Origin: Acidaminococcus timonensis
GTDB taxonomy: Bacteria; Bacillota; Negativicutes; Acidaminococcales; Acidaminococcaceae
Assembly: GCF_900106585.1 (NCBI RefSeq)
Contig: NZ_FNWH01000006.1
Location: forward strand, 744,001-808,000
Direction of reading: 5' to 3'
Length of the DNA stretch: 64,000 nucleotides
Shown piece after piece: positions 3,846-59,394 of the stretch. The notes below the pieces were generated by a model. The model searched no databases and had not been told where the DNA came from. It saw nothing but the letters and a program-made list of their open reading frames with translations. The number at the start of each line of letters is the position of its first letter. Within the stretch, counting starts at the first letter, position 1. Made by a program: the position numbers and the translations under genes.

Positions 3846-4184
3846 GTGAGTGCGGAAAGATAATCGCGGCAGCCTCTGGCTGATGAGGAAAGTCCGAGCT
3901 CCGCAGGGCAGGATGCTGGATAACGTCCAGTGGGGGCGACCCTAAGGAAAGTGCCACAGAAAACAAACCGCCGGCTTTGCCGGTAAGGATGAAACGGTGC
4001 GGTAAGAGCGCACCAGCGGCCAAGTGATTGGTCGGCTTGGTAAACCCCATCCGGAGCAAGACCAAATAGGGAAGGGATGAAGCGGCCCGCTGATCCTTCC
4101 GGGTAGCGTCGCTTGAGCCTGTCGGCAACGGCAGGACTAGATAAATGATTATCACTAACAGAACTCGGCTTACCGGGCACTCAC
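3846..4184 (+). ncRNA. rnpB: RNase P RNA, type A
   Basis: This is the catalytic RNA that matures tRNA 5' ends. The two ends pair perfectly as helix P1: GTGAGTGC (3846-3853) with GCACTCAC (4177-4184). Internal conserved elements are present: GAGGAAAGTCCGAGCTCC near the 5' side, GGGCAGGATGCTGGATAACG, the ACAGAAA motif of the CR-II region at 3956-3962, and near the 3' end AGATAAATGATTATC followed by ACAGAACTCGGCTTACCG. The bulged-loop arrangement is that of the ancestral type A, not the Bacillus type B. Length is about 339 nt, slightly below E. coli. A promoter lies just upstream and thioredoxin follows. Confidence 0.95.
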
Positions 4185-4232
4185 AACTTTGTTCATAACA
4201 CCTTGCGTTTTTGCGTAGAGGAGGAGATACAG

Positions 4233-5544: not shown

Positions 5545-5676
5545 CCGGCAAAACTAAATTTAAAAAGCCGAATCACAGCAATGTGAACGGGGGAACCAAA
5601 GTGGGGTTAATTTCTTCGGAATAGGGCATCTCGACCCGCACCCGGCAGCTAACTTCGTAGGCGTAATCGAGAGGAT
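5545..5676 (+). promoter_or_regulatory. Cyclic di-AMP riboswitch (ydaO/yuaA class)
   Basis: The leader of the NlpC/P60 gene carries the conserved blocks of the ydaO class in order: GGGGGAACCAAA (5589-5600), GGGGTTAAT soon after, then TAGGGCATCTCGACCC, CCGGCAGCTAACTTCG and GTAGGCGTAATCGAGAGGA, ending just before the coding region. The class binds c-di-AMP and usually switches off cell-wall hydrolases and osmolyte or potassium transporters; the neighbour here fits. The last helix strand (around 5666-5675) contains the purine run GAGAGGA that could serve as a ribosome site, so control of translation as well as transcription is possible. Exact ends are approximate. Confidence 0.88.
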
Positions 5677-6408
5677 GTGTTCATTATATTTAGGAGGATG
5701 ATGCTGGGCGTAGTACTGGCGGCGGCCACCACGGCGGCTACAGTAGTACCGATGCAGAACGTATTTGCCAGTTTCAAGCAAGGCCAGTCAGGGCCGGAAG
5801 TGGCAGCCATCCAGGAACAGCTGTTGATGGAAGGCTACGATATCGGGATCCCTGATGGGGTATATGGGGCCCGGACCGTGTCTGCGGTAAAGAAATATCA
5901 GGCCAGCATGGGCCTGAAAGCAGACGGGATCATCGGGGACTTTACCTATAAGAAATTAATGGGCAAAAATATGCCCACCCGTCGGCAGCTGCACGACAAC
6001 CGGGGAAGCTATGGCGGTTACGGCTATGGCAACTATGGCAGCGGTATGGCAAACCAGCTGATCAGCGTCGCCTATGATTATGTAGGCGTGCCTTATGTAT
6101 TCGGCGGAACCACTCCCTGGGGGTTCGATTGTTCCGGGTATACCCAGTACGTGTTTGCCCAGATGGGAATCGACATCCCGCGGACGGCAGATGCTCAATA
6201 TTATGCCTACCCGAAAGTTTCGTCTGACGACCTGCAGCCGGGGGATCTGGTGTTCTTTGAAACCTACGAACCAGGTCCGTCCCATTGCGGCATCTACATC
6301 GGCAACGGCCAGATGCTGCAGGCAGGGAGCAGCACCGGCGTCACCGTATCCAACGTGTTCGGCGGATACTGGGGTGCAAGATATATCGGAGCGGCAAGAG
6401 TCCTGTAA
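5677..6408 (+). CDS. Secreted peptidoglycan hydrolase, PG-binding plus NlpC/P60
   Basis: A 243-residue exported endopeptidase that cuts peptide stems of peptidoglycan. A signal peptide comes first (FRRMMLGVVLAAATTAATVV, cleavage probably after VFA), then a peptidoglycan_binding_1 domain (about residues 33-92, FKQGQSGPEVAAIQEQL), a glycine/tyrosine-rich linker, and an NlpC/P60 domain (about 128-243) with catalytic Cys in FDCSGYTQY and His in PSHCGIYIG. The start is uncertain. GTG 5677 gives the basic n-region a signal peptide needs. ATG 5698 and ATG 5701 lie 0 and 3 bases after AGGAGG and would lack positive charges. A c-di-AMP riboswitch precedes it, linking wall hydrolysis to that signal. 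Confidence 0.9.
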   Translation: MFIIFRRMMLGVVLAAATTAATVVPMQNVFASFKQGQSGPEVAAIQEQLLMEGYDIGIPDGVYGARTVSAVKKYQASMGLKADGIIGDFTYKKLMGKNMPTRRQLHDNRGSYGGYGYGNYGSGMANQLISVAYDYVGVPYVFGGTTPWGFDCSGYTQYVFAQMGIDIPRTADAQYYAYPKVSSDDLQPGDLVFFETYEPGPSHCGIYIGNGQMLQAGSSTGVTVSNVFGGYWGARYIGAARVL

Positions 6409-6469: not shown

Positions 6470-6526
6470 GAACCCACCACCATTGCGCCAGGGCGCAACG
6501 GTCCCCCGCCCTTGAAAAGGGCGGAT
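6470..6526 (-). repeat. REP-like dispersed repeat, copy 1 (inverted)
   Basis: Read on the minus strand it runs from ATCCGCCCTT through AAGGGCGGGGGACC, a variable self-complementary core (GTTGCGCC/GGCGCAAT), to GGTGGTGGGTTC. It matches copies at 6635-6685 and 25046-25096 in both outer blocks, with a different core. Confidence 0.85.
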
Positions 6527-6634
6527 ACCCCTATTGTCGCCGGGTGGCGTTGCCCGGGGATCGGATCTTTTTGAACCAGATGCCGGCAGCAAGCCCAAAC
6601 TCCCATCAGAAACCTGGCACCCCGATCCACGAGT

Positions 6635-6685
6635 ATCCGCCCTTCATAAGGGCGGGGGACCATGCGAATGCATGGTGGTGGGTTC
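6635..6685 (+). repeat. REP-like dispersed repeat, copy 2
   Basis: ATCCGCCCTTCATAAGGGCG, then GGGGACC, a self-complementary core (ATGCGAATGCAT) and GGTGGTGGGTTC. It has the same outer blocks as copies at 6470-6526 and 25046-25096. Confidence 0.85.
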
Positions 6686-20000: not shown

Positions 20001-20031
20001 AAAACCGCTGCACAAGCTGCAGCGGTTTTTT
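20001..20031 (+). terminator. Rho-independent terminator of spoVS
   Basis: AAAACCGCTGCA, loop CAAGC, TGCAGCGGTTTT, then TT. The stem is a 12-bp perfect match. Confidence 0.92.
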
Positions 20032-20060
20032 GTCACTCGTCACTGGTCTGCAGTCTCTAG
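20032..20060 (-). repeat. Degenerate copy of the TAGTGAC composite repeat, inverted
   Basis: GTCACTCGTCACTGG and CAGTCTCTAG read on the minus strand as CTAGAGACTG...CCAGTGACGAGTGAC. This resembles the repeat at 20147-20177 in reverse orientation. It directly abuts the spoVS terminator. Confidence 0.55.
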
Positions 20061-20111
20061 CTGGAGGATAAAATTTGCAGGCAAATTTTTTGAATAGATA
20101 ACACAAAAGTA

Positions 20112-20141
20112 AAAGGACCCGTCCGTCAGGGCGGGTCCTTT
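20112..20141. terminator. Bidirectional terminator between spoVS and the ABC importer operon
   Basis: AAAGGACCCG (20112-20121) pairs with CGGGTCCTTT (20132-20141), with an A run before and T run after, so it can act in both directions. It lies at the 3' end of the minus-strand transporter operon. Confidence 0.88.
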
Positions 20142-20146
20142 CCTAT

Positions 20147-20177
20147 GGCTAGTGGCTAGTGACTAGAGACTAGTGAC
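20147..20177 (+). repeat. TAGTGAC composite repeat, copy next to a terminator
   Basis: GGCTAGTGGCTAGTGACTAG then AGACTAGTGAC. Nearly the same string occurs at 43107-43137, and a degenerate one at 59331-59362. Each lies within a few bases of a terminator-like hairpin. Confidence 0.75.
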
Positions 20178-25029: not shown

Positions 25030-25045
25030 TTGATTTCACCTTTCT

Positions 25046-25096
25046 ATCCGCCCATTGCAAGGGCGGGGGACCAGCCGTATGGCTGGTGGTGGGTTC
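25046..25096 (+). repeat. REP-like dispersed repeat, copy 3, inside the tct operon
   Basis: ATCCGCCCATTGCAAGGGCG, GGGGACC, a core AGCCGTATGGCT, then GGTGGTGGGTTC. The same outer blocks as the copies at 6470-6526 and 6635-6685, in the tctB-tctC intergenic space. Confidence 0.85.
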
Positions 25097-43038: not shown

Positions 43039-43106
43039 AGACAATAAGAATTCGTCCGTAGCCTCCCGGAAGGAACCAGTTCCGCCAGCATCAGCTGGCT
43101 TCCTTT

Positions 43107-43137
43107 GGCTAGTGACTAGAGACTAGTGACTAGTGAC
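43107..43137 (+). repeat. TAGTGAC composite repeat, copy beside a terminator hairpin
   Basis: GGCTAGTGACTAGAGACTAG then TGACTAGTGAC, almost identical to 20147-20177. The hairpin at 43138-43161 follows without a gap. Confidence 0.8.
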
Positions 43138-43161
43138 GGGGGTGTGAGCCATCACACCCCC
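43138..43161 (+). terminator. Terminator-like hairpin after slyD
   Basis: GGGGGTGTGA, loop GCCA, TCACACCCCC. A T-poor tail (TATCTTATT) follows, so it is a modest terminator. Confidence 0.7.
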
Positions 43162-56619: not shown

Positions 56620-56641
56620 ACTCCTACAGTAATTGCAAAAG
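56620..56641 (+). pseudogene. HsdS fragment, left piece before the IS21 insertion
   Basis: Joined to hsdM by a deletion. The last bases ACAGTAATTGCAAAAG, when linked with the sequence after the IS21 and one copy of the duplication removed, restore the frame VIAKENDILLVCKGSGYGK of an HsdS specificity subunit. Confidence 0.65.
56636..56641 (+). repeat. IS21 target-site duplication, left copy
   Basis: CAAAAG, repeated at 59044-59049 on the other side of the element. Confidence 0.75.
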
Positions 56642-56657
56642 TGTGAATGTCAACCAA

Positions 56658-56743
56658 AAAGTGAGCCACTTGCTCACGAATTTTTGAGCCACTCATGCTC
56701 ATGAAAAAGTGAGCCACCTGCTCACGAATTTTTGAGCCACTTA
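56658..56743 (+). repeat. IS21 end repeats (IstA-binding-like)
   Basis: AAAAAGTGAGCCAC, TGCTCACGAATTTTTGAGCC and ACT occur twice in direct order, about 51 bases apart. The other end has GTGGCTCACTTTTT (58982-58995) and ATGGCTCACTTTT (59016-59028), the same blocks inverted. Confidence 0.8.
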
Positions 56744-57496
56744 AGCATTCGTCATCTTCTGTTTGCTGCTGTGCAAACGGTAAGACTGTCCATTCATATT
56801 TAAAACACTGGAGTGGTAGGTGAGCCGGTCGACCAATGCGGCAACCAGCGTCTCGCTGGCAAACATCTCCGTCCATTTGGAAAACTCCAGGTTTGTCGTA
56901 ATCACTGTACTGGCTCTTTCACTCCTTTCGGCAATCACTTTGAACAACATTTCAGATTCTTCCTGGTTGAATCTTGCATAACTTAATTCATCTATGAGCA
57001 GCAGGTCTGCTCCGCTCAAAGTTTTTTCCATCTTGCGCAACTGGTAATCATCATGGGCTTCACATAGCTCAGTTGCCAGCGTTGTGGCATTGCAGAAAAT
57101 GACCTTCCAGCCCAGCAGACAGGCTTTCACTCCAAGGGCTGTCATCAGATGTGTTTTCCCCGTCCCCGGATTACCGATCATCACCAGGTTCTCATGCCTC
57201 TTTATGAAATCGCAGCTTGCCAGCTGCTTCACATATTCAGGCCGAACATGTTCCAGCCTTGTGAGATCAAACTCTTCCAGGGTCTTGAGCATGGGAAAGT
57301 GCGCTCTCTTCAGCCTGCGTTGCTGCTGTTTTTCCTGACGGGATGCATATTCCCGCTTCATCAACCCGAGCACGAATTCTTCCAGGCTTTGTCCGGGGCG
57401 GAATTTTTCCGCTGGTTCACCGACGTCTTTGAAAGTGGGAAGTTTAAGCTGTTTCGCATAGAAACGGAGTGCTTCCTTTACACCTGCGTCCTGCAC
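56741..57496 (-). CDS. istB: IS21 helper ATPase IstB
   Basis: A 251-residue AAA+ ATPase of the DnaC/IstB group. An N-terminal helical part (about 1-90) is followed by Walker A VMIGNPGTGKTHLMTALG near residue 105 and Walker B LLLIDELSYARFN near 166, with the TSNLEFxxW-like sensor TTNLEFSKWTEMF and the arginine-rich end LVDRLTYHSSVLNM. It loads and regulates the IstA transposase. The start is GTG 57496, with GGAGGCACTAT before it, overlapping the istA end by 19 bases (IS21-type coupling). No defect is seen. Confidence 0.93.
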   Translation of the reverse strand: MQDAGVKEALRFYAKQLKLPTFKDVGEPAEKFRPGQSLEEFVLGLMKREYASRQEKQQQRRLKRAHFPMLKTLEEFDLTRLEHVRPEYVKQLASCDFIKRHENLVMIGNPGTGKTHLMTALGVKACLLGWKVIFCNATTLATELCEAHDDYQLRKMEKTLSGADLLLIDELSYARFNQEESEMLFKVIAERSERASTVITTNLEFSKWTEMFASETLVAALVDRLTYHSSVLNMNGQSYRLHSSKQKMTNA

Positions 57497-58920
57497 ATAG
57501 TGCCTCCTTCCTGTAAAAGCTGGTCATACATTGAAAGATCTGTCTGCTGCACTTTTACCGGGTCGGTAAGGATATGCGCTTTCCTGTCGGAAACCATAAA
57601 TTGCTCTTTGTGCTCCCAAAAAGCGTTCTCTCCGTCGGCAGCACATAGCCGCAGAATCTCAACCAGCTGTTCGCTGCTGAATGCATTGGTCTCCAGGAAC
57701 TGTAGCAGGGCAGCACTGAGGTTCTGCCGTACCGGTTTTGCTTCCAGGATGCTGCGCGGCTTGTATTCCAGCAACGGCAGATAATGCGCAAGTTTCAGAA
57801 TCTGCTGGTTTTGCCCATAGTTTCTGGCGTGTTCAGCAATCAGTTCCCCCTTGGCAAAGATCCGAATCTGTTCAGCATAGGCTCGCACCGTGACCTCCTG
57901 TCCCACATATTTCACGGGCACAGAATAATCGTTAGCGACGAATCGGACAACAGAAAAGGGTGTTACTCGGCAGACTGCTGCTCTGCTTGCATCAAAAGGG
58001 CTGCCCGGCAGTGGGCAGAGACGTTTCTGGTCTTCCAGGAGCAGATCCTTTACAGGGTTCTCCCGTCCAGGGATTTTATGCGTATTCGCATACACCTTGC
58101 ATTTATCCAGCAGGAGTCTGTTCAATTCGTCCAGCGCATCTACTCTGGGTACAGGGACAAAGACATTCCGGCGGACCCAGCCTACGAGATTCTCCACCAG
58201 TCCTTTTTCATTTCCACTCCGGACATTGCAGAAAACGGTATGGAAGCAATAATGGGCTGCAAATGCTTCATACTTTTCCTGGGCAATGGCTTCTTTGCCA
58301 CCTTTTTCCTTAACGGCTACCCGGTCATTGTCAAAAATGACCTTAGCAGGGACGCCCCCAAAGAATTCCAGAGCTTTTCTCAATGCTTCAAGTAAAGCTT
58401 CCGTATTCTTCCTGCGGAAACAGACCACGAAAGGAGCACAGCTGTAGCAAAGGCGGGCACAAAAGAAATTGACTTTAGTACGCACTCCTTTGAGGTAAAC
58501 CACAGCTTCACCCCAATCAATCTGCATCGCATCACCTGGAAGGTGAGCCAAAGGGACGAAGGCTTCCTGAAGATTGCCACGTAACAGATGAACGCAGCGC
58601 CGGACTGTGCTTGCACCTCCTGTAAATCCAGTTTCTTCTACCAGGCGGTCATAAATCCGCTTGGCTGTGTGGTGCTGCTTCTTATTGGGTTCTTTCGCAT
58701 CTTCATCCAGACAGCTCTGGATGAATCGAGTCACCTCCTCTGTAATCACTGCAGATGTCCGATGATATTCGCAGCGGATGCCCGGGAGTGCATTTCCTTT
58801 GCAATACTTGGCCACAGTATTACGGGAGATATGCATTTCTCTGGCAATCTGGCGGATAGATTTTCCATCGCGAATGTACATCTGGCGAATTTGACCATAA
58901 TCTTTCATAGTGATGACCAT
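57478..58920 (-). CDS. istA: IS21 transposase IstA
   Basis: A 480-residue transposase. The N-terminal helix-turn-helix is DGKSIRQIAREMHISRNTVA near residue 20, and the integrase core starts with DAMQIDWGEAVVYLKGVRTK near residue 128, then ARKVIFDNDRVAVK-like VPAKVIFDNDRVAVKEKGGK near 194 and NVRSGNEKGLVENLVGWVRR near 233, giving the DDE acids. The start at ATG 58920 is assumed; ATG 58908 is also possible. The gene overlaps istB. Complete and without stops. Confidence 0.92.
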   Translation of the reverse strand: MVITMKDYGQIRQMYIRDGKSIRQIAREMHISRNTVAKYCKGNALPGIRCEYHRTSAVITEEVTRFIQSCLDEDAKEPNKKQHHTAKRIYDRLVEETGFTGGASTVRRCVHLLRGNLQEAFVPLAHLPGDAMQIDWGEAVVYLKGVRTKVNFFCARLCYSCAPFVVCFRRKNTEALLEALRKALEFFGGVPAKVIFDNDRVAVKEKGGKEAIAQEKYEAFAAHYCFHTVFCNVRSGNEKGLVENLVGWVRRNVFVPVPRVDALDELNRLLLDKCKVYANTHKIPGRENPVKDLLLEDQKRLCPLPGSPFDASRAAVCRVTPFSVVRFVANDYSVPVKYVGQEVTVRAYAEQIRIFAKGELIAEHARNYGQNQQILKLAHYLPLLEYKPRSILEAKPVRQNLSAALLQFLETNAFSSEQLVEILRLCAADGENAFWEHKEQFMVSDRKAHILTDPVKVQQTDLSMYDQLLQEGGTMCRTQV

Positions 58921-59043
58921 CCTAACATCAATCCCCTTAGAATCAAATTACTGACTCTAGTATAGGGGAACTTGTTTCAGAGTGGCTCACTTTTTCATGA
59001 GCATTTAGATCTTAAATGGCTCACTTTTATATTAGCATTCACA

Positions 59044-59049
59044 CAAAAG
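59044..59049 (+). repeat. IS21 target-site duplication, right copy
   Basis: CAAAAG, same as 56636-56641. Confidence 0.75.
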
Positions 59050-59341
59050 AAAATGACATATTATTAGTATGTAAAGGATCAGGATATGGAAAGGTCTGTA
59101 TAGCAGATTTTCAAGAGGCACATATTGCAAGGCAAATTATGGCTTTTCGTCCCAATGCTTTCATAAACAATCGTTTCTTGTACTACTATCTACAAAACAT
59201 GTATAAGACTCTCCGTAAGTTGTTTTAAATTTAAACATTACTTTACCACCATTAGATGAACAACAAAAGATTGTGCAATTTTTAGACCGATTTGATAGAC
59301 AGAATGATAAAGTAAATATTTTGACTCAGCCTGACTACTGA
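59044..59341 (+). pseudogene. Type I R-M specificity subunit HsdS, C-terminal remnant
   Basis: The frame after the IS21 reads ENDILLVCKGSGYGKVCIAD and FQEAHIARQIMAFRPNAFIN, the conserved end of an HsdS target-recognition domain. It stops near 59228. The distal coiled-coil start NITLPPLDEQQKIVQFLDRF and DRQNDKVNILTQ lies in a different frame (about 59233-59341), so there is a frameshift around 59225. Upstream, the rest of hsdS is deleted up to hsdM. With no hsdR seen, the R-M system is wholly lost in this window. Confidence 0.82.
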
Positions 59342-59362
59342 CCAGTGACTAAAGACTAGTGA
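59331..59362 (+). repeat. Degenerate TAGTGAC composite repeat
   Basis: CTGACTACTGACCAGTGACT then AAAGACTAGTGA. It is the same repeat as at 20147 and 43107, again ending directly at a hairpin (59364-59394). Confidence 0.65.
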
Positions 59363-59363
59363 T

Positions 59364-59394
59364 GGGGATGTGAAAATCATTTTTTCACATCCCC
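59364..59394. terminator. Hairpin between the hsdS remnant and def
   Basis: GGGGATGTGAAAA (59364-59376) pairs with TTTTCACATCCCC (59382-59394), then ATTTTT. It is best oriented as a plus-strand terminator and also lies just behind the 3' end of def. Confidence 0.8.

Follow-up and report, generated by a model that had tools for sequence, protein, structure and literature searches.

The heptanucleotide arrays of Acidaminococcus timonensis are best explained as segments of a clan of non-coding, MITE-like repeats of about 110-350 bp that lie at gene 3' ends and carry terminators of their own; we put the probability of this reading at roughly 55%. The arrays were found in a window of 64,000 nucleotides (contig NZ_FNWH01000006.1, positions 744,001 to 808,000 of the forward strand), where an earlier, sequence-only reading had described TAGTGAC-type strings attached to terminator hairpins. 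The repeats have a recurrent order of parts and a seven-nucleotide period with a GAC core. They lie between genes, adjacent to hairpins, and avoid the gaps between divergent genes. One family is dispersed in many similar copies, and cassettes and plain terminators alternate at the same gene ends. The samples analysed were 440 kb of the organism's own genome (G000, including the window), 360 kb of G007 and 120 kb each of G006 and G003, with a further 100 kb of G002 and 81 kb of G008.

Heptad arrays in the window

All four strings of the sequence-only reading were confirmed in place, and the spacing of 0-6 bases that it gave between string and terminator hairpin also stands. The copy at 20005-20177 is double. 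It begins just after spoVS (SpoVS by Pfam) with a terminator-like hairpin B at 20005-20025, which together with its T-run occupies 20005-20031 on the forward strand. The 6-nt T-run leads directly into an inverted array at 20032-20061, assigned to the reverse strand and reading GTC-N4 on the forward strand. Hairpin A follows at 20071-20088 (AAATTTGC/GCAAATTT, a type that recurs at other loci), then hairpin A' at 20112-20141 (GGACCCG/CGGGTCC type, recognized from sequence and scan), which is the terminator hairpin of the earlier reading. After 5 nt comes a forward-strand array at 20147-20177 that opens with GGC and continues in N4-GAC units. This right side has no hairpin B after it, and the hairpins of the double copy are of other types than those below.

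The copy at 43084-43161 consists of a hairpin A of the GCCAGC/GCTGGC type (H2, from sequence and consensus) at 43084-43099, a forward-strand array at 43107-43137, 7 nt away, and, at 0 nt on its other side, a hairpin B of the H3 type at 43138-43161 (GGGGGTGTGA/TCACACCCCC, from sequence and family). It has the H2, heptads and H3 of the CTAG family described below, but a different left end. A more diverged forward-strand array at 59333-59363 also lies 0 nt from an H3-type hairpin B, at 59364-59394 (GGGGATGTGA/TCACATCCCC). The GTGTGA/ATGTGA core that had been seen in two hairpins is real, and both belong to the H3 type. With up to three mismatches, an 18-base core matches the window seven times (overlapping matches, at three places) where 0.02 are expected. 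A 22-base core at the same tolerance gives 66 + 100 overlapping matches (166) in the 2.30-Mb genome, and the reversed pattern gives none.

At the Rfam gathering score, the window matches only RNase P and the c-di-AMP riboswitch and the heptad repeats match nothing; at two sites there are matches below that threshold. The RNase P RNA (class A) lies at 3847-4187 and the riboswitch at 5556-5678. An NMT1-like protein encoded next to the repeats has orthologues that are 74-91% identical in named and uncultured Acidaminococcus and in members of the family. Elsewhere in the window, the stretch 56641-59044 has inverted arms (56641-56671 and 59014-59044), tandem 43-nt repeats and two genes, one with Mu-type transposase domains; we take it to be probably an IS21-like element.

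The seven-base period and its units

This genome has at least five different seven-base units, of which TAGTGAC is one. The unit differs from locus to locus, and most units align as GAC plus four bases. The core of the sequence-only reading is real, but is only one version among several heptad types. In a scan of periods 4 to 22, period 7 was found at 16 places in G000 and 14 in G007; its multiples 14 and 21 aside, the next best period has 4 and 4. G006 gave eight places for period 7 and no more than two for any other. The three places in G003, one of them a run of N, and the two in G002 are numbers too small to interpret, and the 81-kb sample of G008 gave no period-7 place.

The pattern (GAC-N4)x3-GAC, counted with overlaps on both strands, occurs 80 times in G000, 56 in G003, 71 in G006 and 139 in G007, against 5, 1, 5 and 2 for the reversed pattern. 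The balance is opposite in G001 (8 vs 102), G005 (4 vs 38) and G002 (8 vs 25), because the heptads of these genomes have a CAG core. G022, from another genus, gives 0 vs 23, and G004 and G008 each give 0 vs 1. Across the class, 35 of 200 genomes contain a match. A few outside Acidaminococcus have several (for example G126 29, G209 14, G180 7 and G172 7), and most have none. Long loose heptad runs of other kinds, for example CTGATAC/CTGACAC and CCCTTCG/CCCTTAA/CCCTTAG, are seen at L104, L109, L114 and L120 (G022 or G058). Heptads look to be more widespread than Acidaminococcus. The GTDB r220 contigs, a collection that may leave out the own and very near genomes, contain no exact match to a 27-mer spanning linker and heptads. 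Carriage by phages or viruses was considered and dropped, a 201-bp query having no match among phage sequences and an exact 22-mer none in IMG/VR.

Arrays were collected with a detector for GAY-core heptads. At a score of at least 10 it gives 34 arrays in G000, 47 in G007, 14 in G006 and 12 in G003, some of which are false hits in coding regions. At low thresholds, periods 6 and 9 score as often as period 7 or more often. At threshold 12 in G000, the counts are 27 for period 7, 19 for period 6 and 11 for period 9; periods 8, 10 and 11, which were used as controls, give 1, 0 and 1. The signal at periods 6 and 9 presumably comes from codon repeats. Reversed sequence also scores, because reversed arrays keep the GAT period. 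A score of at least 13 leaves 78 confident arrays from four species, 28 of the CTAG type and 50 others. There are three or four consecutive cores in 66 of the 78, a distribution biased at its lower end by the threshold, and five or six in just three.

A frame of hairpins

Read on the GAC strand, the parts follow the order hairpin A, linker TTCCWTC, GGC, heptads and hairpin B, which is often 0 nt away. The linker is common to the CTAG arrays (28) and the others (50), and is weaker in the latter (T at -6 in 31/50, C at -5 in 31/50). In a double copy, hairpin B and inverted heptads come first, then hairpin A, the core and hairpin A', and after these TTCCWTC, GGC, heptads and hairpin B'. Half copies, made up of A, heptads and B, are frequent as well.

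On their 3' side, 48 of 77 arrays have a hairpin of at least seven pairs no more than 12 nt away (31 of them at 0 nt), and on their 5' side 28 of 77 do. Among points placed at random between genes, the count is 62 of 1037 (Fisher p = 2e-33 for the 3' side and 1.5e-13 for the 5' side, values that overstate independence since similar copies are counted singly). In G006 and G003 together, the proportions are still 12/19 and 13/19. A cruder folding measure points in the same direction (51/78 on the 3' side and 38/78 on the 5' side; control 450/1600). Hairpins B within 2 nt of an array (n = 41) have on average 4.27 T among the 8 nt after them, and hairpins A are mixed (2.75). By this pattern of a G+C-rich hairpin and then a T-run, hairpins B are predicted intrinsic terminators.

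Close pairs of arrays face outward in 12 of 17 cases. A GTAGGGGC-type palindrome forms the core in 5 of the 11 outward pairs with a gap below 400 bp. The arms of the 11 outward pairs are not significantly alike (mean likeness 0.73 vs 0.69, with 136 of 1000 shuffles as high), and words are shared between arms in 3 of 11 pairs where 1.88 are expected, so the term terminal inverted repeat is not established for them. The adjacency of repeat and terminator hairpin claimed by the sequence-only reading holds, but the hairpin is itself part of the repeated unit, and the arrays often come as outward pairs.

The window also contains another dispersed element, some 52 nt long and with two hairpins (parts CCGCCC/GGGCGG and ACCA/TGGT), at 25045-25096, at 6634-6685 and, inverted, at 6500-6528. 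It has many copies in G000, G003, G006 and G007 and no Rfam match, and stands beside diverged heptads at 587707-587953 and 854024 of G000.

The CTAG family

The type found by the sequence-only reading has the structure GGCGCTGTG..CACAGCGCC (H1), GCCAGC/GCTGGC (H2), TTCCATCGG, heptads and GGGGTGTG..CACACCCC (H3). Alignment gave 35 distinct, closely similar dispersed copies. The 22 full copies, which have an exact H1 and both ends, measure 108-143 bp with terminator-like hairpins at their ends. Their left flanks are mostly A-rich and their right flanks mostly T-rich. A flanking direct repeat of at least 3 nt was found at none of the 22, and no target site duplication was found; such duplications are not universal. 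The left module has 93 matches in G000, 42 in G007 and 0-8 in the seven other genomes of the genus. In the consensus fold, standard pairs fill 678 of 693 paired cells, with 21 changed on one side and 10 on both. H2 itself gains no confirmation from this fold, in which its 3' arm pairs not with the 5' arm of H2 but with the first GGCTAG. The copies are short, multi-copy and intergenic, and a length of 108-143 bp leaves little room for a gene.

Different cassettes at the same gene end

At four gene ends that were compared between species, cassettes alternate with plain terminators. At 886391 of its own contig, G000 has a CTAG element, as does G007; in G006 a plain palindrome of about 38 bp stands there, and in G003 a double element. 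The flanks in G000 are 94-99% identical to those of G007 and 91-96% identical to those of G006. The sharp edges coincide with a stop codon and with conserved sequence upstream, and selection is another process that could have made them. At 889307, G007 has 303 bp and G000 a plain terminator of 45 bp; the half copy in G006 looks like an internal deletion of the double in G007. At 595345, G003, G006 and G007 all retain the terminator ATGCTCCC..GGGAGCAT; G000 lacks it and has a CTAG-type cassette. From the T-run of this terminator to the next shared stretch there are 2 bp in G006 and 179 bp in G003 (fold -78 kcal/mol), and G007 has remnant heptads. The 179-bp cassette of G003 follows a native terminator that is bare in its relative G006. 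At the spoVS site, the matching flanks are 157 bp apart in G000 and 8 bp apart in G007, and G007, G006, A. provencensis and an uncultured species have a single short terminator. Single comparisons show differences at three further sites (654549 and 914819 against G007, 736905 against G003), and two elements, at 886391 and 939004, are common to G000 and G007.

Near-identical blocks also contain other large differences. There are 145 bp in G007 with heptad-like words at 885258, and 124 vs 7 bp without an array at 791708. The stretch 878336-892960 on contig C6 of G000 has blocks 92-98% identical to G007 amid a background of about 82%, which suggests recent exchange between the species.

These comparisons bear on the possibility that the arrays are ordinary heptanucleotide simple-sequence repeats, the product of slippage in 7-nt steps under weak selection and promoted by the hairpins, with nothing moving. 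The period is specifically 7, and longer arrays exist, for example one of about 12 units at L151 1233-1320; heptads are moreover the commonest long units in many bacteria, according to PMC4679880, which cites Mrazek 2007. Slippage would not readily account for the similar 108-143-bp copies that surround the array in many places, for the linker and hairpins common to different unit types, or for whole-cassette differences at the same gene end, and arrays of more than four units are few. We regard this explanation as unlikely. The MITE-like reading fits best the 35 similar copies, the presence or absence of whole cassettes and the intergenic position beside hairpins. To that extent, the sequence-only suggestion of a small mobile element that travels with terminators, or inserts next to them, is partly supported; movement as such we infer from these patterns.

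Position relative to genes

With the first gene caller, 73 of the 78 confident arrays are intergenic. The outcome that the sequence-only reading had named as contrary to it, a majority of copies within genes or distant from terminators, is not seen in the sample. Because this first, codon-based caller placed genes on top of clear arrays, a dicodon model was used in its stead. With the dicodon model, arrays are depleted in divergent gaps (2/71 arrays vs 70/367 gaps, p = 2e-4) and enriched in convergent ones (18/71 vs 39/367, p = 0.0017), a bias that depends on the caller, as the codon-based one gave none (convergent 15, tandem 40, divergent 15, with 5 in gene calls). Four more arrays lie inside dicodon gene calls, and three have no gene on one side. 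Counted by gap, an array is present in 14/39 of the convergent, 47/258 of the tandem and 3/70 of the divergent gaps (p = 0.0007, convergent and tandem vs divergent). In tandem gaps, the array is nearer the stop than the next start in 34 of 51 cases, and GTC-sense arrays have a median distance of 26.5 nt from the stop. Synteny breakpoints were rejected as a correlate of the arrays; they occur at 1 of 6 array gaps vs 6 of 42 array-free gaps of at least 60 bp, with 18 array gaps unmappable.

The sequence-only reading had also suggested a protein-binding site at transcript ends, for which the evidence speaks neither way. The location at gene 3' ends is what would be expected of a host regulatory array, in which heptads at the ends of transcripts are bound by a protein or RNA that makes contacts with a period of 7, next to hairpins that are ordinary terminators. 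The conserved GAC core, the fixed spacing and the usual number of three to four units agree with such a role. However, arrays in tandem gaps have no preferred direction relative to the upstream gene (26 to 25), four of the seven unit positions vary between loci and orthologous gene ends often lack an array. A host regulatory array is a decidedly unlikely explanation. An arrangement of stop codons in all frames that backs up the gene's own stop before the terminator is highly improbable and was rejected, since it fits only the CTAG arrays (stops in all six frames in 21 of 28) and is contradicted by the other unit types, where among 50 arrays all three frames are stopped on the GAC strand in 20 and on the opposite strand in none.

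How the repeats may spread

If the arrays are parts of MITE-like repeats, an enzyme supplied in trans may copy the cassettes to sites next to terminators or put them where a terminator was. The hairpins would end transcription, and the heptads may serve as a recognition or pairing segment of the element. Such repeats would be tolerated at transcript ends and lost elsewhere. As candidates for the mobilizing enzyme, Y1 genes were sought in the genomes of the genus, and none could be tied to the repeats.

REP/BIME-like hairpins moved by a Y1 (IS200/REP-associated) transposase would share the mosaic of hairpins and short motifs, and Y1 genes are present in several genomes of the genus. Yet there are no matches in G006 and one weak partial match in G003, both of which are rich in arrays. 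The IS200-like copies in G000 are not bounded by heptads, and one of the three abuts a long array. The Y1 transposase was rejected as a partner, its absence from G006 being inconsistent with the distribution of the arrays, and we consider this origin very unlikely. The long array is the one of about 12 units at L151, which lies about 6 nt from one of the three near-identical G000 copies; the other two have no array within the 3.5 kb read.

Relation to known repeats and meaning for the genus

The DNA uptake sequences of Neisseria and Pasteurellaceae are short genome-wide repeats in terminators that themselves form the hairpin, whereas the Acidaminococcus heptads adjoin the hairpin and do not form it. 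The foldback transposons of eukaryotes have inverted ends made of short tandem repeats and are much larger; the Acidaminococcus arms, by contrast, are not significantly alike. The BrickBuilt MITE of Porphyromonas gingivalis is likewise a non-coding, intergenic, multi-copy element holding a tandem repeat, with inverted ends. As described in PMC4596501, it has a 23-nt unit, 19 copies in one strain and inverted repeats like those of known IS, whereas no IS link was found for the Acidaminococcus repeats, Y1 genes being what was sought.

Two heptad systems are closer in form. According to PMC4692102, the GGGNATC repeats of Xanthomonas and Nostoc are seven-base, intergenic and genome-wide, prefer four units, are scarce between divergent genes and often lie near stop codons; the Acidaminococcus arrays resemble them in all these respects. 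The GGGNATC unit is single, G-rich and a proposed former of G-quadruplexes, whereas the Acidaminococcus unit varies and its array is framed by hairpins. G-quadruplexes were rejected here, four GG or CC tracts being present in just 5 of 78 arrays. The TAACTGA direct repeats of Beggiatoaceae (169 sets of 2-6 units, whose origin PMC4679880 calls unknown) are also short intergenic heptad arrays distributed patchily across taxa. They have one unit and lie mostly just upstream of start codons, whereas the Acidaminococcus arrays lie at gene 3' ends with hairpins. Both systems have one constant unit per genome, and the Acidaminococcus genome has several.

Intergenic heptad repeats are already known elsewhere. 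In the open-licence PMC literature, we found no account of these repeats in Acidaminococcus and no description of heptads that combine varying units, a hairpin frame and terminator exchange. If the MITE-like reading holds, the arrays would represent a second heptad system that prefers three to four units, in this case with no G-tracts, and would weigh against G-quadruplexes being the general cause of this unit number.

A bolder proposal, which we offer tentatively and think less than probable by some way, is that Acidaminococcus and, patchily, other Negativicutes have interchangeable terminators. These would be hairpin cassettes with lineage-specific heptads, of GAC or CAG core according to species group, that a dedicated putative machinery copies into gene 3' ends or swaps there, such that terminators turn over and the neighbouring genes stay. 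If this holds, terminators in a gut genus would be exchanged as cassettes, besides drifting in sequence, and their turnover could be counted between strains.
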